From positions 1,512,919-1,576,918 of the forward strand of contig NC_014150.1 of the NCBI RefSeq assembly GCF_000092845.1: a DNA stretch of 64,000 nt. Direction: 5' to 3'. The position numbers and the translations under genes were made by a program. The notes beneath the pieces were generated by a model. That model did no database searches, had not been told where the DNA came from, and worked only from the letters and a program-made list of their open reading frames with translations. The stretch's first letter is position 1; each line of letters begins with the position of its first letter. Positions 3,107 through 12,251 of this stretch are shown here, piece after piece. The DNA comes from Brachyspira murdochii DSM 12563. Lineage in GTDB: Bacteria > Spirochaetota > Brachyspiria > Brachyspirales > Brachyspiraceae.

Positions 3107-3770
3107 TTATTTATTTTTTATTTTTAGATATTTTATTTTTTGTTCATATTCTTTATTTCTATAATCAAAATCATCATTCTCTATAGGTATAGATTTATCA
3201 GGCGGTTTTGCCGATAGGCACCTACTCGGTGGAATATATACATCTTCATTTTTATGCCTAACATTCGTTTGAGGATAAGCTGGAAATGTTACTAATGATA
3301 TTTCATGCAAAGTGATTTCTTCTACTTCACGTATAGGCATTCCGTATTCTTTTAATGTTTCTTTATCATCAATCCAATTATCTCTCACTACTTTGAATCC
3401 GAAAGACATCTGCTTTATATCGCCTCTGTCCACGCTTTCTTTCAAATCTCTTGCCCAAGTAGTATTTGGCATAGAAACTTCAAAATATAACCCTTTTTCA
3501 TCTTCTCTTAAAATTAATGTGCCAGAACTCTTTCTGCCTAGAACATATCTTGTATCATGTCCCCCATAAACATACTTGATCATTTTCTAATAATGATTTA
3601 GTGAAAGCTCCTCTGTTTATACGCTCTCTAAATAAATCTCCATAGAGAGGCTCACTTAAAGAATTATATACAATAGCATAGCCTCTTAATTTAAGAGGCT
3701 CACCTTCTGTGTCTGTACTTTTTTGAATATTAATATCTATACTTCTAATTTCATTATTACTTGCTGGCAT
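3107..3770 (-). pseudogene. Prohead protease (HK97 gp4-like), frameshifted
   Basis: Two overlapping frames together encode one S78-type prohead protease. The first (3555-3770, 71 residues) has the N-terminal LRGYAIVYNSLSEP and GAFTKSLLENDQ segments and stops at LWGT. The second continues with HDTRYVLGRKSSGTL, the serine region IKQMSFGF and LHEISLVTFPAYPQT. The frames join at a run of five Gs (minus strand, about 3562-3566); four Gs would give LWGHDTRY. The putative catalytic His and Ser are both in the second frame. It could be a decayed gene, a slippage-controlled gene or an assembly indel. The C-terminal tail also contains a palindromic insert (3210-3231). Confidence 0.8.
3209..3231 (-). 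repeat. Short palindromic element P3 in protease tail
   Basis: A G+C-rich near-palindrome with half-sites CCGATAGG and CCTACTCGG in the C-terminal tail of the protease gene, where it encodes PPSRCLSA on the minus strand. Bases 3209-3231 occur as an exact reverse complement at 13294-13316, inside the SSB gene. The sequence beyond this core differs at the two sites. Confidence 0.85.
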
Positions 3771-5570: not shown

Positions 5571-7343
5571 ATGTATACCTATGAAGAATATATCAATAAA
5601 GTTATAAATAAAGAATTGCCAGTGTGTCAAGCTGCTTTTTTATCTGTAAAAAGGCATTTGGACGATATAGAAAAATCAAAAAATAATGATTATCCTTTTT
5701 ATTTTGATGATAATGAAGCTAAACGTCCTATCATGTTTATACAATCTTTAGTACATACAAAAGGAGAATGGGCAAATCATAATATTATACTAGAGCCTTG
5801 GGAACAGTTTATAATAGCAAGTATATTCGGATGGAGAAGAAAGGAAAATAAACTCAGACGTTACAAAAAAGCATACGTTCAAGTGAGCAGGAAAAATGGA
5901 AAAACTACTTTTGCATCTGGCATTGGTAATTATTGTTTTTTCTGCGACAGTCCTGCAGAGGCTGGAGTTGAAATATATTATATAGCTACTAAAAAAGATC
6001 AAGCGAAAATTGCATGGAGCGAAAGCGAAAGGCAAATAAGAAAAGCAAAAGCTCTTAATAAAGAAGCGATTACATATAAACAAACTTCTACAATTACAAA
6101 GAAAAAAGATACTGCATCAAAATCCAAACCGCTTGGACAGGACAGCAACACTGAAGACGGATTAAATCCTCATTTAGTGATAGTAGATGAGTACCATGCA
6201 CATCCTGATAATGAACTACTAAATGTTCTTGAATCTGGAATGGGAGCTAGAAGGCAGCCGCTTGTATTTATAATTACTACTGCTGGTTTTGATAAATCTT
6301 CAGTGTGTTTTTCTGAATATGAATATGCAAAGCAAATATTAAAAGGTTCATTAAATAATGATGAATACTTTACAATAATATATGAGCCTGACAACATCAA
6401 TGATATTTGGGTATTTATGTCCGAATATAAAGAAAAATTAAATAAAAATGAAGATGTTTCTAAGCAGGAAGAATTAATAAATAAAATTATTTTTCAAGCT
6501 AATCCTAATATAAATGTTTCTGTAAAAGACAGTTATCTCAAATCTAGGCTTTTAGAAGGGCTAGATAAACCTATTCAAAGAACTGATATACTTACAAAAA
6601 ACTTGAATGTTTGGACACAGGCTAGTGAAGTTTGGATATCTTCTGACAGATGGATTAAATCTTATTCACATCAAAATATAAATATAAATGAATTAAAAGG
6701 CAGGAAAGCCTGCATCGGTTTGGATTTAGCAACTACAAGAGATATAGCAGCTTATGTTTTATGTTTTGATTCTATTGATAATGGTCCGTATATACTTCTG
6801 CCTCGCTTCTTTATGCCTAAAGAAAATATAAGGCAGCGTTCTAAAGAAGACAGAGTGCCTTATGAATTATGGGCTTCGCAAGGTTTAATTACTTTAACAA
6901 GCGGTGATATAATAGATTTTGATGTTATAGAATCCTCAATACTAAATGATGCGAAAGATTTTGAAATTATAGAAATAGCTTATGACCCTTGGAAAGCTAT
7001 TGAAATAGTAACACACTTAGAAAGTGAGGGCTTCAAAATGGAACAGGTTAGGCAATCTTTTGCAGTCGGCGGTTTATCTGAAGGAACTTCTTTATTTGAA
7101 AAAACTATAGATGAACGAAAACTCCTTCATGGTAATAATGCAGTTCTTAATTGGATGATAAGCTGCTGTGAAGTAAAAACGGATGGGAGGGATAATTATT
7201 TGCCTGTAAAACCTGACAGAAGAAGATCATATAAAAGAATAGATGGTGTTGTAGCCTCCATTATGGCTCTTCATAGAGTGATTAAAAATCATTTTGAAGA
7301 TACTAAAAGTATTTATGAAACTGAAGGCGTTTTTACATTATAA
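5571..7343 (+). CDS. terL: Terminase large subunit
   Basis: A 590-residue packaging ATPase and nuclease. The ATPase domain has the Walker A motif SRKNGKTT (residues 106-113), the Walker B VIVDEYH near 203-209 and a coupling segment FIITTAGFD. The nuclease domain begins near residue 380 with CIGLDLATTRDIAAYV, whose first Asp is the expected metal ligand, and later carries IAYDPWKA. Length and motif order fit the Terminase_1 family and the gene looks intact. With terS it forms a two-gene plus-strand unit, opposite to portal and capsid. Confidence 0.93.
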   Translation: MYTYEEYINKVINKELPVCQAAFLSVKRHLDDIEKSKNNDYPFYFDDNEAKRPIMFIQSLVHTKGEWANHNIILEPWEQFIIASIFGWRRKENKLRRYKKAYVQVSRKNGKTTFASGIGNYCFFCDSPAEAGVEIYYIATKKDQAKIAWSESERQIRKAKALNKEAITYKQTSTITKKKDTASKSKPLGQDSNTEDGLNPHLVIVDEYHAHPDNELLNVLESGMGARRQPLVFIITTAGFDKSSVCFSEYEYAKQILKGSLNNDEYFTIIYEPDNINDIWVFMSEYKEKLNKNEDVSKQEELINKIIFQANPNINVSVKDSYLKSRLLEGLDKPIQRTDILTKNLNVWTQASEVWISSDRWIKSYSHQNININELKGRKACIGLDLATTRDIAAYVLCFDSIDNGPYILLPRFFMPKENIRQRSKEDRVPYELWASQGLITLTSGDIIDFDVIESSILNDAKDFEIIEIAYDPWKAIEIVTHLESEGFKMEQVRQSFAVGGLSEGTSLFEKTIDERKLLHGNNAVLNWMISCCEVKTDGRDNYLPVKPDRRRSYKRIDGVVASIMALHRVIKNHFEDTKSIYETEGVFTL

Positions 7344-7523
7344 TAATATCACTAATTTTATAAGTACCCCCTAATAAAAAAATTATCGCCATGCACAAAA
7401 GACTCCCCACTCGTTGCACCGATTGAAAGCCTGTAGAGATTTTCCCCACCCCCCGCCAAGCAAATATAAATCACTTATAATTTTGTTAAAGAAAAAAAGT
7501 TATTAATTTTAATTGAAAAATAG
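7344..7523. other. Non-coding region after terL with G+C-rich island
   Basis: No convincing gene. Bases 7363-7465 include several C-runs (TACCCCC, ACTCCCCAC, CCCCACCCCCCGCC), out of keeping with the A+T-rich surroundings. A packaging or cohesive-end site, or a decayed gene, could lie here; nothing in the sequence decides. Confidence 0.3.
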
Positions 7524-7551
7524 TTGACATTTTTTCAAGATATGCTATAAT
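7524..7551 (+). promoter_or_regulatory. Consensus sigma-70 promoter for membrane peptide 1
   Basis: TTGACA (7524-7529) and TATAAT (7546-7551) with a 16-base spacer; TATGC just before the -10 resembles an extended -10. Transcription would start near 7558, giving a leader of about 27 bases before the ATG at 7585. Confidence 0.85.
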
Positions 7552-7584
7552 ATAATTAATCCTAGATAAAAGGAGGAAATAATT

Positions 7585-7671
7585 ATGGAAGTCTTAACTT
7601 TCATAGCTACAATTATTGATATAATGACCCTTATCGTAATTGTGGTTAAGCTGATAAAGATTAAAAAATAA
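7585..7671 (+). CDS. Tiny hydrophobic peptide 1 (28 aa), type I toxin-like
   Basis: A 28-residue peptide: a short acidic start (MEVLTFIATIID), a hydrophobic stretch (IMTLIVIVVKLI) long enough to span a membrane, and a basic KIKK end. It has a consensus promoter and an excellent AGGAGG ribosome-binding site eight bases before the ATG, so it is almost certainly translated. This layout is that of type I toxin peptides (TxpA, Fst, Ldr styles) and of small phage membrane effectors. Downstream bases 7719-7734 are complementary to the start region 7578-7593, which could block translation through folding. Homology to any named toxin was not recognised. Confidence 0.7.
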   Translation: MEVLTFIATIIDIMTLIVIVVKLIKIKK

Positions 7672-7690
7672 TTTTTATTAGCTTACGAAA

Positions 7691-7734
7691 GGGAGCTGAG
7701 TTTGCCGACTTGGCTCCTGACTTCCATAGTTATT
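7691..7734 (+). promoter_or_regulatory. Hairpin plus anti-start sequence downstream of peptide 1
   Basis: A hairpin (7692-7701 with 7708-7717, two G-U pairs, six-base loop) is followed at once by GACTTCCATAGTTATT (7719-7734). The latter pairs with AATAATTATGGAAGTC (7578-7593), which spans the peptide 1 start codon and the bases just after its ribosome-binding site, over 16 bases with one wobble. Such 5'-3' pairing is typical of translationally inert type I toxin messages; the role here is inferred. Confidence 0.6.
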
Positions 7735-7763
7735 ATTATATATATAATATAGGAGTTGTCAAG

Positions 7764-7853
7764 ATGTTAACAACTATAAATGCAATATTATCTTTAGTAT
7801 CATTATCACTTAATATAGCAGTTTTAGTTCTTTTATTTAAAAGAGGTAATTAA
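7764..7853 (+). CDS. Tiny hydrophobic peptide 2 (29 aa)
   Basis: A 29-residue peptide with one hydrophobic segment (INAILSLVSLSLNIAVLVLL) and a basic FKRGN tail. An AGGAG ribosome-binding site lies upstream of the ATG at 7764. The start codon sits in the loop of a small hairpin formed by AGTTGT and ACAACT. Its stop overlaps the ATG of the ribbon-helix-helix gene (TAATG), so the two are translationally coupled. It may be a membrane toxin, a holin-like peptide or a membrane partner of the downstream system. It resembles peptide 1 in design but not closely in sequence. Confidence 0.65.
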   Translation: MLTTINAILSLVSLSLNIAVLVLLFKRGN

Positions 7854-8059
7854 TGGATAATAAAAAAAATACTCATGGTGGTGCTAGAATTGGAGCTGGC
7901 AGAAAAAAGAAAGATGATAAGGATAAAAAGCCTAGCTATAGAATATCTTTTAGATTAAATGAAGAAGAAAATAAAATGCTTGAAGAAGCCGCAAAAAAAG
8001 AAGGAATGAGCATAGGACAATATGCTAGAAAATGTGCTTTGGAGAAATTTAAAATATAA
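7853..8059 (+). CDS. Ribbon-helix-helix DNA-binding protein (68 aa)
   Basis: A 68-residue basic protein. It starts with GGARIGAGRKKK, a motif common in small phage and plasmid DNA-binding proteins. A MobC/CopG-like ribbon-helix-helix follows: a strand (YRISFRLN), helix (EEENKMLEEAAKKEG) and helix (SIGQYARKCALEKF). It probably binds palindromic DNA as a dimer; the hairpin at 8085-8110 just downstream is an obvious candidate site. It is coupled to peptide 2 and lies 63 bases before the GHKL-nuclease gene, so it may regulate the cargo operon. Antitoxin or autorepressor roles are both possible. Confidence 0.7.
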   Translation: MDNKKNTHGGARIGAGRKKKDDKDKKPSYRISFRLNEEENKMLEEAAKKEGMSIGQYARKCALEKFKI

Positions 8060-8084
8060 CAAATAAATAATTTATATATATTAG

Positions 8085-8108
8085 GTGTTGCGATAATAAA
8101 GGTTATCG
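8085..8108 (+). repeat. Left boundary inverted repeat of cargo block
   Basis: GTGTTGCGATAAT, four variable bases, then GTTATCG. The same 24-base pattern (20 of 24 identical) occurs in the opposite orientation at 12094-12117. The sequence also forms its own hairpin (GCGATAA / TTATCG) ending a few bases before the ribosome-binding site of the GHKL-nuclease gene. It could be an operator, a cassette end or a leader hairpin. Confidence 0.6.
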
Positions 8109-8122
8109 TATTGGAATTCATT

Positions 8123-10000
8123 ATGTATGTAAAAAAAGAAAGTAAATTAATAAAAGTAAATGGAAGATTAATAACAAATTCTTTAGTAGATAAAAGCAAT
8201 ACTTTTTTAGCTTTATGTGAACTTATAAATAATTCTATTCAAGCATCTGCAAATAATATAGAAATAAATATGACATCTGATTCTGAAGGTGAAATGATAA
8301 AAGATAGTATAACTTCTTTATCAATAAAAGACGATGGAGAAGGTGTATCTCTTAGTGATTTTCAAAAGAAAATATTAGAAATAGCTACAGACATAAAACC
8401 TAAAGGAAAAGGAACAGGAAGATTTTCAGTCTTTCAATTTGGTAAAACTGCTTATTTTGAAACAGTTTCTTATGATAAAATTTTAAATAATTATACAAAG
8501 ACATCATGTACATTAAATTTAAATGAACTTCAAAATGGATATATAGATAAAGAAGTAGAACTTGAAAGTTATATTTTTAATTCAAAAAAGGATACATATT
8601 TTTTTATAGAAGTAAGAGACATATTTACTAAAGATTATGAAAATTATAACAGTAGAAAACATAAAATTTGTGATGCATTAAAAACAGAAAATATAGGTTT
8701 ATCATTATTTACTATGTATCCTATAGAAATGTTAGATAAAAATATTCAATTTTTTGTAAATGGTATAAAAATTGATACTAAAAACTATCAGTTGGATAGA
8801 AACAAATTTGAAAGACAATATAACGATTATTCAATAGAATATGATGTTATAGAACATAAGTCTAAAAAAAAGAAAGAAGAAAAAGTACTTTGTATAAGAA
8901 CTGAAAATAACAATATAAAAAATATATTAAATTATTTTGATATAGAAATGGATATACCTTATAAAGAAAAATCGGAAGTTAGTTGGCATATATATGTGGA
9001 TTCTGAATACATAGATAAAAATGTAGAATCATTTGAAAATATAGATTTAAAGGATATGAATATTGATGTAAAAAATTTTTTAAATCAAATAGAAACAGAT
9101 ATCAAAAATTTTTTCTTAAATAATTATGAAGAATATTTTAATTTTAGAGATAAACTAATAAAAAATGATAACTATCCATATAAAAACAATATTAGTTCAT
9201 CTAAAAGTAAAGAAATAGCATTTATACAAATAGCGTATTCTATAGAAGATAAATATAAATTATTGTCATCTAATAATAAAGATTTGATGAAAATTATTTA
9301 TCCATTATTAGATGGTTGTTTAGATAATCCAAATTTAAAAAAAATAATTAATAGTATTAATACGCTAAAAAAAGAACACATCAAACAATTTGAAGAATTA
9401 ATAGATAAAACAGAATTAGATGAAGTTATAACTTTTTCTGATAATGTTGCTAATAAAATGGCATTTTTAGATTTTTTACATGAAATTAATTATAGTGATG
9501 ATATATCTAAATATATATTAGAACGTAAACAGTTACATAAAGTACTAGAGAAAAATTTATGGATATTTGGAGAACAATATATTTATAGTAGTGCTATAAT
9601 AGAAAGTGATACTAATTTAGGAAAAAATTTAGAACGATTACGAGCAAATATTATGAAAAATAATTGTGAAGAGTTTGATGAAATAAAATCAGATGATAAT
9701 ATAACAAAAATAACAGATTTATTCTTTTATTCAGACTTTAAATTTAATAAAAAACATGAGGTATTAGTTGTAGAATTAAAGAGACCTAGTGTTAAATTGG
9801 GTAATAAAGAAATTGAACAAGTAAAAAGATATGGATCTGAGATATCAAAATCCAGTAGTATAAGTAAACAAAATGTAAATTTTAAAATCATATTAATAGG
9901 TTCAAGTATTAATGAAGATGATGCAATATATATAAGCAATAATGAACCATTATATAAAACAGGAAATATTGAAATATGGGTAATGAACTGGGCTGATTAA
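8123..10000 (+). CDS. GHKL ATPase fused to Shedu/DUF4263-like nuclease
   Basis: A 625-residue protein. The N-terminal GHKL (Hsp90/MutL-type) ATPase shows the N-box CELINNSIQA (32-41), the G1 motif KDDGEG (69-74) and the G2 loop GKGTGRFSVF (95-104). A long helical middle follows. The C-terminus has LEKNLWIFGEQY, typical of the start of DUF4263, and a PD-(D/E)xK core: D532 in ITDLFFYSDF, E551 and K553 in VVELKRP, then a QVKRYG helix. Shedu nucleases with varied sensor domains defend bacteria against phage; a GHKL sensor fits that theme. ATG 8123 has GGAA six bases upstream. Codon use is extremely A+T-rich, suggesting recent transfer. Confidence 0.75.
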   Translation: MYVKKESKLIKVNGRLITNSLVDKSNTFLALCELINNSIQASANNIEINMTSDSEGEMIKDSITSLSIKDDGEGVSLSDFQKKILEIATDIKPKGKGTGRFSVFQFGKTAYFETVSYDKILNNYTKTSCTLNLNELQNGYIDKEVELESYIFNSKKDTYFFIEVRDIFTKDYENYNSRKHKICDALKTENIGLSLFTMYPIEMLDKNIQFFVNGIKIDTKNYQLDRNKFERQYNDYSIEYDVIEHKSKKKKEEKVLCIRTENNNIKNILNYFDIEMDIPYKEKSEVSWHIYVDSEYIDKNVESFENIDLKDMNIDVKNFLNQIETDIKNFFLNNYEEYFNFRDKLIKNDNYPYKNNISSSKSKEIAFIQIAYSIEDKYKLLSSNNKDLMKIIYPLLDGCLDNPNLKKIINSINTLKKEHIKQFEELIDKTELDEVITFSDNVANKMAFLDFLHEINYSDDISKYILERKQLHKVLEKNLWIFGEQYIYSSAIIESDTNLGKNLERLRANIMKNNCEEFDEIKSDDNITKITDLFFYSDFKFNKKHEVLVVELKRPSVKLGNKEIEQVKRYGSEISKSSSISKQNVNFKIILIGSSINEDDAIYISNNEPLYKTGNIEIWVMNWAD

Positions 10001-10189
10001 TAAAAAGAAAATAGAGATAAATTAACTTATATGAGTAATGAAATAAAAGTTAAAGATAATTATATATTAAATAATATTGAAAAAAAAATATCCCTGAAAT
10101 AAACTTCAATAATATTAAATTGAAGTTAAATGTGAAAAAATAATTATTAATTATATATTAATATAAAATAAATATTTTGGGAATACATT

Positions 10190-11911
10190 ATGGAATATGA
10201 AAAACTTATTACAAAATTAGCATATGATTATAACATATTTAATAAAGATTCTAGTATAGAAAATATTTTAGAGCTTTTTAAAGATACAAATGAAATTAGT
10301 ATTAAAGAATTAAATTTATTAATATTCATTATTATCAATGAAAAAAGTTACTCTAATTTTTGTAAAGAATTAAAAAATATAACTAACATATATTCAGATG
10401 AACAATTAAGTAGTCTATTTTTAAGTTTTATAGCAATTGCTAATTCTGATAGCATAGATATCACTATGCAGTATAGAAATAAATTAGAAAATGAAAAAGA
10501 ATTAAATATGGTATCTATGACAAATAGTAATATAAAATTAGAAAATAATTATTTTTCATGTAATGATATTATTGACACTACTGTAGATCTTTTAGACTTT
10601 AATTTTAAATTATTTAAGTATATAACTAACAATAAGGAAATAATATCATCTACTATCAATTATATGAATATTGATCTAGTAAGAGAAAATAATAAATTTT
10701 TAATTTTAAAAACTATTTATGAATATATATGTTTTGAAAATGCATTTTTATCTGAAGTTAGTATTTATAAATATAAAATAGAATATAAAGATAAGTTTCA
10801 TATATTAAAATATATTAATTTATTGAAGGTTAATGAAAAATTAATATCTTCTCTAATGAATACTCATAACTTGAAAATATATTATTTTGATAACATATAC
10901 ATAGAAAATTTAAAAATAAACGAAATGACTGGTGAAATATTTTTTGATATAGAAAAAAAGTCGGTAAAAAATATGTATATAGAAGGTAGAATGAAATTAT
11001 ATATAAATAGTTTAGTAATATACCATTATTACTATGATAAAAATTATAATGATATGGCACTAAATTTTTTCAGAGTGTTTATTGCATTAGATTATATACT
11101 ATACAATGTATCAAATTATATAACTGATACAAAGCATAATATCAATTTTTATTTATTTAAAATAAATAAAAAATTACTATCTGAATATTGTACAAAAATA
11201 ACTAATTTAGATAGTAATATTTGTGATGATATAATAGAATATTTAACTTATGATAATAAATCTAGTTTTTGGAATAAACCTTTAATAAAAAATGGTGATT
11301 TTTATCATTTATTAATTACACCTATAAAATATGGCAATATTATATTTATTGTAGATGAATATATGAATAATAAAACAACTTGTTTTAAAGATAAAAAAGG
11401 AAATCTATTTGAAAAATTTGTCGTAGATGAAATTACACTTCTATTATCTGAAAAAAAATTTTTTTATAAAATAGATCATGGTAAATATAAAATTTCTAAA
11501 AAAGAGATGGAGGAAATAGATTTTATATTAGAAACAAAAAATACAATTATAGTAGCTGAAATTAAATGTATTAGATATCCATTTAATTCACAGTTAATAC
11601 AAAGATATGAAACTATTATTAATAAAGCGGTTGATCAAATAATAAGAAAAACTACATTTTTAATAAAAAATAATAAAAAATTTCAAAATAAAAAAATTTC
11701 ATTTCAAAATAAAAAAATTATTAAATGTGTTATAACAAATTATAGTTTATTTTCTGGAACAGAAAGATCTGGAGTTTATATTATAGATATAAATATGCTT
11801 CGTAAATATATTAATGTTGGTAAAGAAGGATTTATCAAGTATGACTTAAGTACTAGAGAAAAACATGAAATAGCTAAAAACTTATATAATACTGAAGATG
11901 GAATTTTCTAA
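10190..11911 (+). CDS. Unknown protein with C-terminal PD-(D/E)xK nuclease domain
   Basis: A 573-residue protein whose first 390 residues match no family I recognise; they look mostly helical, Asn/Ile/Tyr-rich and soluble. The C-terminal 170 residues carry a restriction-type core: GNLFEKFVVDE (E408), EEIDFILE (D444) and IIVAEIKC (E457, K459), followed by a helix with YETIINKAVDQI. It lies 190 bases after the GHKL-nuclease gene in the same direction and has the same extreme A+T composition, so the two probably form one functional unit. The ribosome-binding site is weak (TGGGAA). A second effector nuclease or a target-recognition partner is plausible. Confidence 0.65.
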   Translation: MEYEKLITKLAYDYNIFNKDSSIENILELFKDTNEISIKELNLLIFIIINEKSYSNFCKELKNITNIYSDEQLSSLFLSFIAIANSDSIDITMQYRNKLENEKELNMVSMTNSNIKLENNYFSCNDIIDTTVDLLDFNFKLFKYITNNKEIISSTINYMNIDLVRENNKFLILKTIYEYICFENAFLSEVSIYKYKIEYKDKFHILKYINLLKVNEKLISSLMNTHNLKIYYFDNIYIENLKINEMTGEIFFDIEKKSVKNMYIEGRMKLYINSLVIYHYYYDKNYNDMALNFFRVFIALDYILYNVSNYITDTKHNINFYLFKINKKLLSEYCTKITNLDSNICDDIIEYLTYDNKSSFWNKPLIKNGDFYHLLITPIKYGNIIFIVDEYMNNKTTCFKDKKGNLFEKFVVDEITLLLSEKKFFYKIDHGKYKISKKEMEEIDFILETKNTIIVAEIKCIRYPFNSQLIQRYETIINKAVDQIIRKTTFLIKNNKKFQNKKISFQNKKIIKCVITNYSLFSGTERSGVYIIDINMLRKYINVGKEGFIKYDLSTREKHEIAKNLYNTEDGIF

Positions 11912-11930
11912 TAACTTTGAAATATATTTT

Positions 11931-12050
11931 ATGAGCTCAAATTCTTTTTATGAAGATAGAATTAAAATAATAACTAAGAAATTAAAAATAGGAAATTTTG
12001 AAATATCTATACCTACAATAATAGAGAATAAATTGTTTCATTACGAATAA
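11931..12050 (+). CDS. Possible small protein (39 aa)
   Basis: An ATG-initiated 39-codon frame beginning MSSNSFYEDRIKIITKK and ending FHYE. It lies 19 bases after the unknown nuclease gene with no good ribosome-binding site. It could be a short third gene of the cargo block, a gene remnant or chance. Confidence 0.25.
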   Translation: MSSNSFYEDRIKIITKKLKIGNFEISIPTIIENKLFHYE

Positions 12051-12089
12051 TAATACCTCTGCGTAAGCTTTGTGTAGTATTATTATATA

Positions 12090-12117
12090 GTTGCGATAAC
12101 ATAAATTATCGCAACAC
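12090..12117 (-). repeat. Right boundary palindrome / inverted repeat of cargo block
   Basis: A perfect inverted repeat GTTGCGATAA / TTATCGCAAC (12090-12099 and 12106-12115, six-base spacer). Read on the minus strand, 12117-12094 repeats the pattern at 8085-8108. It starts five bases past the stop of the small ribbon-helix-helix gene that ends at 12123. Function may be operator, 3' hairpin or recombination core. Confidence 0.65.
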
Positions 12118-12122
12118 TGTAT

Positions 12123-12251
12123 CTAATTGATATAATCTAAAATAAGTTTTTTAATATACTTACGTACGCTCATATTATTTTCTTTAGCTAATCTTTTTAA
12201 TAGCTTATATTCTTTATAATTAAATCTGCAAACTACTAATCTTTTTTTCAT
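12123..12251 (-). CDS. Small ribbon-helix-helix protein (42 aa) coupled to integrase
   Basis: A 42-residue basic protein (MKKRLVVCRFNYKEYKLLK...) with the strand-helix-helix plan of minimal CopG/Arc proteins: VVCRFN strand, KEYKLLKRLAKENN helix and SVRKYIKKLILDYI helix. A GGAGG ribosome-binding site lies inside the integrase 3' end, and its ATG overlaps the integrase stop (TAATG). It could be an excisionase-like directionality factor or an integrase regulator, binding the palindrome at 12090-12115 just beyond its stop. Confidence 0.7.
   Translation of the reverse strand: MKKRLVVCRFNYKEYKLLKRLAKENNMSVRKYIKKLILDYIN

Follow-up and report, generated by a model that had tools for sequence, protein, structure and literature searches.

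A prophage-borne Brachyspira locus with a self-folding small-peptide message and the predicted anatomy of a type I toxin–antitoxin module

Introduction

What does a strongly folded RNA do between the terminase and integrase genes of a Brachyspira prophage, where two equally perfect promoters face each other across a hydrophobic peptide of 28 residues? In hok/sok, a type I system, a small membrane toxin is paired with an antisense RNA, and a first-pass annotation of the locus, made from the sequence alone, had proposed a type I toxin-like reading. The results presented here make it quite probable that the module is a type I toxin–antitoxin system, with its transcripts, antisense action and toxicity predicted from sequence; it looks like a previously undescribed type I family and is apparently the first one in Spirochaetota.

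Results and Discussion

Organisation of the locus

The window, i.e., the whole stretch of 64,000 nucleotides analysed (Brachyspira murdochii DSM 12563, NC_014150.1, positions 1,512,919 to 1,576,918), is a prophage with capsid, portal, terS and terL genes before the module and an integrase gene after it; the module is located between terL, which ends at 7343, and the integrase gene (12251). The B. murdochii genome contains three identical copies of the module in three near-identical prophages. A promoter scan of positions 6500–9000 revealed two promoters that stand out, equally perfect and on opposite strands, and these delimit the module (Table 1). The sense promoter has a TG element upstream of its −10 box, and the sense RNA is predicted to start at about 7558.

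The elements named in the first-pass annotation, namely the consensus sense promoter, the AGGAGG motif, the hydrophobic peptide, a hairpin and a 16-base sequence complementary to the start codon region, are all in place; two hairpins, P4 and P5, precede the anti-start strand, and the 16 bp pairing consists of 15 Watson–Crick pairs and one G-U pair. The annotation did not contain the minus-strand promoter, the second small ORF, the ribbon-helix-helix (RHH) gene and the 10-bp AUG hairpin, and the earlier observation is thus correct but understated. The predicted start of the antisense RNA, at about 7728, falls inside the anti-start strand, so the RNA would open with (C)UAUGGAAGUC, letters that it would share with the toxin start region. 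This strengthens the earlier suggestion that the opposite-strand copy of the start region belongs to an antisense RNA, since the copy is located just where such an RNA is predicted to have its 5′ end. The Shine–Dalgarno (SD) region of ORF2 adjoins the −35 box of the antisense promoter. No intrinsic terminator for the sense RNA was found after P5 in the scan of 6500–9000, and none was found on the antisense strand within the window; the sense RNA may therefore be a long operon message.

Table 1. Positions of the module elements in the window
Feature	Position	Strand	Basis or remarks
Whole module, sense promoter to antisense promoter	7524–7762		
Sense promoter	TTGACA 7524–7529, 16-nt spacer, TATAAT 7546–7551	+	Promoter scan; near-perfect in all intact relatives
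Anti-SD UCCU paired with Shine–Dalgarno AGGAGG	7560–7563 with 7571–7576	+	Fold and covariation
End-to-end helix, 5′ strand, over the start codon	7578–7593	+	Fold and covariation
Local 10-bp hairpin covering AUG	7583–7606	+	Candidate metastable structure; folding, covariation
ORF1, putative toxin, MEVLTFIATIIDIMTLIVIVVKLIKIKK	7585–7671	+	28 codons from ATG at 7585; stop 7669–7671
Helix P2	7598–7602 with 7687–7691	+	Fold and covariation (helix 5)
Hairpin P3, within ORF1	7606–7646	+	Fold and covariation (helix 6)
Hairpin P4, across the ORF1 stop	7647–7685	+	Fold and covariation (helices 7–9)
Hairpin P5	7692–7717	+	Fold and covariation (helix 10)
End-to-end helix, 3′ anti-start strand	7719–7734	+	Sequence, fold, covariation
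Antisense promoter	TTGACA 7762–7757, 16 nt, TATAAT 7740–7735	−	Promoter scan, 12/12 match; conserved
ORF2, second small membrane peptide, MLTTINAILSLVSLSLNIAVLVLLFKRGN	7764–7853	+	
RHH gene, NikA-like	7853–8059	+	Start codon overlaps the ORF2 stop

Predicted folding of the sense RNA

Folding of bases 7558–7740, proposed in the first-pass annotation as a check, gave a structure of −69 kcal/mol that includes the start-hiding pairing; 200 dinucleotide shuffles had a mean of −31.7 (SD 3.5; z = −10.76), and not one of the 200 was as stable. ORF1 is entirely inside the structured RNA, in the predicted P2, P3 and P4 helices. When 14 copies were folded singly, the z-scores ranged from −7 to −11 and the energies were near-constant (−59 to −70 kcal/mol).

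The AUG hairpin and the end-to-end helix are mutually exclusive. Folding at growing transcript lengths predicts that the AUG of the window is sequestered first by the local hairpin and later by the end-to-end helix, being at most about 12% unpaired at every sampled length from 46 nt on. The hairpin forms from early transcript lengths in several members and is clear in most; it is weak in L106 and L056, where part of the AUG is predicted to stay accessible up to the synthesis of the 3′ strand, and members other than the window generally leave the AUG more open up to that point. In 11 of 14 copies, the hairpin is more stable than at least 95% of shuffles, and an alignment of subfamilies indicates changes of its own on both sides.

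Covariation and strand selection

Among 29 distinct copies, changes on both sides that keep the pairing are found in 47 of the 62 base pairs, and 88.5% of the cells pair; the fold is thus not a product of chance, as it has been kept with compensatory changes in about 29 distinct relatives. The cells with both-sided changes number 270, versus 90 ± 9 in shuffles and 36–49 when the partner is slid by 1–3 columns. The 29 copies were aligned by fitting to a covariance model, a step biased towards the structure, but alignment A3, made without a model, is in agreement. For eight aligned copies, RNAalifold also predicts this fold, and 20 of its 62 pairs have both partners changed.

The end-to-end helix (helices 2–4) has 11 of its 14 pairs changed on both sides and is 87–98% paired; its letters differ and the pairing is kept in L036 (ACCGcAUGG/CCAUaCGGU), L091 (AUGGAGGAU/AUCCUCCAU) and L034 (AUGGAAGUUC/GAACUUCCAU). 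In the anti-SD/SD stem (helix 1), all four pairs have changed on both sides, and 86.5% of the cells are paired. The end-to-end helix is unsupported in about six members (L060_5999, L055, L110, L117_15201, L104 and L108_1501). In a MAFFT alignment of all subfamilies, the strands of the end-to-end helix are misaligned between subfamilies, so that RNAalifold recovered no more of the structure than the local AUG hairpin and P3; alignment within subfamilies and the covariance model were the remedy.

The pairs of the structure contain 147 G-U cells versus 50 A-C cells (an A-C cell being G-U on the other strand), and the antisense strand of the 14 singly folded copies reaches −45 to −62 kcal/mol, less than the sense strand. 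The excess of G-U over A-C, together with the stronger sense fold, shows that selection acts mainly on the sense RNA.

The peptides and the antisense promoter

ORF1 is intact in most copies, encoding a hydrophobic peptide of 25–30 residues with a basic C-terminus in most; the type I toxins of Clostridioides difficile prophages are longer. By sequence comparison, ORF1 is under purifying selection (pN < pS in 31 of the 32 usable pairs, which are not independent of one another). ORF1 has no Pfam match at E-values up to 1 and none in NCBIfam or PHROGs, and the profiles of known Pfam toxin families (Hok, Fst, Ldr, TisB, Hol_Tox and others) did not match the peptide. Rfam covariance models yielded two sub-threshold chance matches in the window and none in L114, L117 and L119; judged by these searches, the module belongs to no toxin or RNA family tested. 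ORF2 is absent in L099, L100 and L089, where there is a direct start of the RHH gene instead and the antisense promoter is kept.

The best minus-strand promoter match within the last 80 bases of each copy has one mismatch at most in 28 of 29 copies, whereas windows placed at random in these loci attain this level in about 0.5% of cases. Damage falls on the toxin side: L093 of B. hampsonii has lost the sense promoter and SD, an insertion shifts the ORF1 frame in L087, L053/L111 have lost the SD and contain a stop, and L096 has ACG instead of ATG, plus stops, and in all of these the antisense promoter is good. In no copy is the antisense promoter lost with the toxin side intact; the weakest is that of L089, with two mismatches. 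The type I toxin-like reading of the first-pass annotation is thus supported by the covarying start-codon pairing, sense-strand selection, purifying selection on the peptide, the conserved antisense promoter and the retention of that promoter in copies that lose the toxin side.

Distribution

When 26 Brachyspira genomes were searched at the DNA level, relatives with 72–92% identity were recovered; related loci come from Brachyspira alvinipulli, B. innocens, B. hampsonii and Brachyspira sp. A first covariance model, built from the eight-copy alignment, pointed to 32 places in 18 of the 26 genomes, and a second model found the module in 19 of 26; none of 221 genomes of other Spirochaetota contained it by covariance model. 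An exact DNA pattern matched seven contigs in IMG/VR, and all seven carry the module according to the model. A blastn search against phages returned nothing beyond promoter-like fragments, the plasmid search gave chance fragments only, and the protein search against phages gave no match. A search of the open-access literature turned up no type I system described from Brachyspira or any other spirochaete.

Genomic context

The region between terL and the integrase gene (7344–12250 in the window; L112–L123) is a cargo hotspot in Brachyspira prophages; it is rich in anti-phage genes, and most occurrences of the module across the genus lie in it. In the window, the cargo includes a HATPase/HSDR_N-like protein and a NERD protein. 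The gene at 8111–10000 is a candidate defence gene; its product, of 629 residues, has an HSP90/MutL-like ATPase domain, matches HSDR_N weakly and is related to phrog_6203, a group of unknown function. Matches to PADLOC models downstream of the modules comprise IetS (L120), NsnA/PD-T4-2 with a cytosine methyltransferase (L119), PDC-M19A (L114), PDC-M30A (L112), PDC-M68B/LmuB-like (L115) and methyltransferases. The same cargo occurs behind different modules in different genomes, e.g., a methyltransferase pair in L119 and L121. Several modules can share one hotspot: there are three in L114 (7326, 10397 and 11329) and three in L117 (11636, 12838 and 15201), one of the latter on the opposite strand, and the modules of L114 and L117 have RHH genes of different classes.

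Three RHH classes match three classes of sense-promoter spacer beyond what RNA similarity accounts for (partial r 0.45, reached in 0 of 2000 permutations). Such coupling of promoter and RHH gene is suggestive only, because the two would stay together, with no functional link between them, if the inner RNA/ORF2 segment were swapped.

Proposed mechanism and alternative readings

The mechanism that would follow from a type I reading can be outlined. The sense promoter would drive a message for the small membrane toxin ORF1; during synthesis, the AUG hairpin and the anti-SD stem would limit translation and, once the 3′ part has been made, the message would close into the end-to-end fold with the start codon buried. 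The antisense RNA, starting in the anti-start strand, would run back across the message and remove or block any translatable form of it. If the antisense supply stops, through prophage loss or because a phage shuts off transcription, message that is trimmed or unfolded could be translated, and the peptide would injure the membrane; activation by 3′ trimming is proposed here by analogy with known systems. The message probably runs on into ORF2 and the RHH gene, and the RHH protein may repress the sense promoter in an autoregulatory manner. The three near-identical prophage copies and the defence cargo beside the modules fit a toxin–antitoxin system of mobile elements, and prophage stabilisation and abortive-infection defence are its likely uses here.

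A more speculative extension, which we consider rather doubtful, sees the module as a composite control unit: the self-locking toxin message, besides its antisense regulation, would answer to an RHH protein that recognises the promoter, and the whole would serve as the interchangeable head of anti-phage cassettes within the hotspot. Loss of the RHH protein or the antisense RNA would then free the toxin, which would both hold the cassette in place and bring about abortive infection, the trigger of release being loss of the cassette or infection by another phage. The 5′ end of the antisense RNA, as a copy of the toxin start region, would in such a unit compete with that start for the anti-start strand.

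Translational control of a non-toxic membrane peptide or leader ORF in an ORF1–ORF2–RHH operon, tuned by the antisense RNA, would account for the fold as well. The continuation of the unit into ORF2 and the RHH gene, with an overlapping start codon and no sense terminator found after P5, is consistent with such control, as is the spacer class that tracks the RHH class; the retention of the antisense promoter in several copies without the ORF1 side is, however, what is expected of a toxin, and the size, hydrophobicity and basic tail of the peptide and the layered hiding of its start match type I toxins, which renders mere operon control unlikely. Within one hotspot, modules stand in front of different blocks of cargo, may follow one another in tandem and are found in either orientation, which might indicate that the inverted repeats act as DNA (a cruciform or folded single strand), i.e., as attC-like recombination sites marking exchangeable cargo cassettes, but the G-U to A-C ratio of 147:50 points to selection on one RNA strand and already made this very improbable, and the stronger sense fold, the purifying selection on ORF1 and the conservation of both promoters also argue against it. 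ORF1 and ORF2, as two small membrane peptides of a prophage that are encoded close behind terL in several loci, could also be read as a holin/antiholin-like pair for phage lysis, which the folded message and the antisense RNA would keep silent in the lysogen. Such a lysis pair is equally hard to believe in, since the module lies in an accessory hotspot before defence genes and not with lysis genes, can be present several times in a prophage (three each in L114 and L117), lacks ORF2 in some copies and has no PHROGs lysis match.

Comparison with known type I systems

Taken as a type I module, the locus resembles aapA/IsoA of Helicobacter pylori (PMC6733600) in its peptide of about 30 residues, which is toxic in aapA, in the 5′–3′ long-distance pairing, which makes the full-length aapA message inert, in the metastable hairpins during transcription, for which the AUG hairpin is a candidate here, in an antisense RNA overlapping the toxin message, which is predicted for Brachyspira, and in the several chromosomal copies. 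The aapA pairing hides the SD via anti-SD motifs (PMC6733600), whereas in Brachyspira the start codon is what the pairing covers, and the SD is paired in a 5′ stem of its own. Unlike aapA/IsoA, the Brachyspira module has its antisense promoter at the outer end, and the predicted RNA starts with the copy of the start region; it also resides in a prophage, has the additional ORF2 and RHH gene, shows no detectable sequence relation and belongs to a different phylum. With hok/sok it would share the small membrane toxin with an antisense RNA (PMC8167048), and it shares the stable final fold of the message, hok activation requiring 3′-end processing (PMC6733600), but it is without an overlapping mok-like frame, its predicted antisense RNA comes from the 3′ side and, unlike Hok, its peptide matches no Pfam family.

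The operon layout is close to that of yonT-yoyJ/SR6 of the Bacillus subtilis prophage SPβ, where a polycistronic message encodes one toxin and, behind it, another small toxin, with one antisense RNA that has its promoter at the junction (PMC5848175). The overlap of SR6 is limited to the 3′ end of yonT and the ribosome-binding site of yoyJ, and its ends are known (PMC5848175); there is no RHH gene, and the account of the system drawn on here describes no covarying end-to-end fold. Anatomically, the Brachyspira locus corresponds to a type I module that combines the self-locking message of hok/aapA (PMC6733600) with the operon layout of yonT-yoyJ/SR6 (PMC5848175).

The par locus of pAD1 (Fst/RNA II; PMC8167048) also has convergent toxin and antisense promoters, a short membrane peptide and repeats at both 5′ ends. 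The par repeats are direct and render the RNAs complementary there (PMC8167048), whereas the Brachyspira repeats are inverted, so that both RNAs would begin alike; a par/Fst-type mechanism was dropped on this ground. A shared bidirectional terminator, as in par, was not found in the Brachyspira module. Type I modules of C. difficile prophages, e.g., CD0977.1/RCd11, are likewise prophage-borne, have a hydrophobic toxin with a lysine-rich tail and use an antisense RNA as the antitoxin, as predicted for the Brachyspira module, and they have been shown to stabilise the prophage (PMC7699646); no sequence relation between these modules and the Brachyspira module was detected.

According to a paper of 2025 (PMC12390103), Proteobacteria, Firmicutes and Tenericutes were the only groups with type I systems found until the cyanobacterial case that it presents; the Brachyspira family, if it is type I, would extend them to Spirochaetota. 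It was found by covariation and not by likeness to known toxins, which suggests that the narrow known range may reflect the search methods. The family would tie RNA-controlled toxins to a prophage defence hotspot, and its approximately 29 natural variants of one self-locking message could be useful for testing co-transcriptional folding as a protection against the toxin.

Sequences preceding the module

A GC-rich segment with CCCC runs at about 7366–7475 is conserved in many relatives after unrelated upstream genes; it has a strong predicted fold on the minus strand (−28.7 kcal/mol) and could be a packaging or attachment site. In many loci, terL is replaced before the module by a gene of 89–90 residues with a coiled-coil-like end, located directly before the module in L113 (9128–9397), with similar genes in L115, L118, L119 and L120. 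Further upstream, a prohead-protease-like gene (3107–3770) is split in the prophage copy of the window; a comparison with the other two copies of the prophage in the genome shows a difference of one C near 3562.
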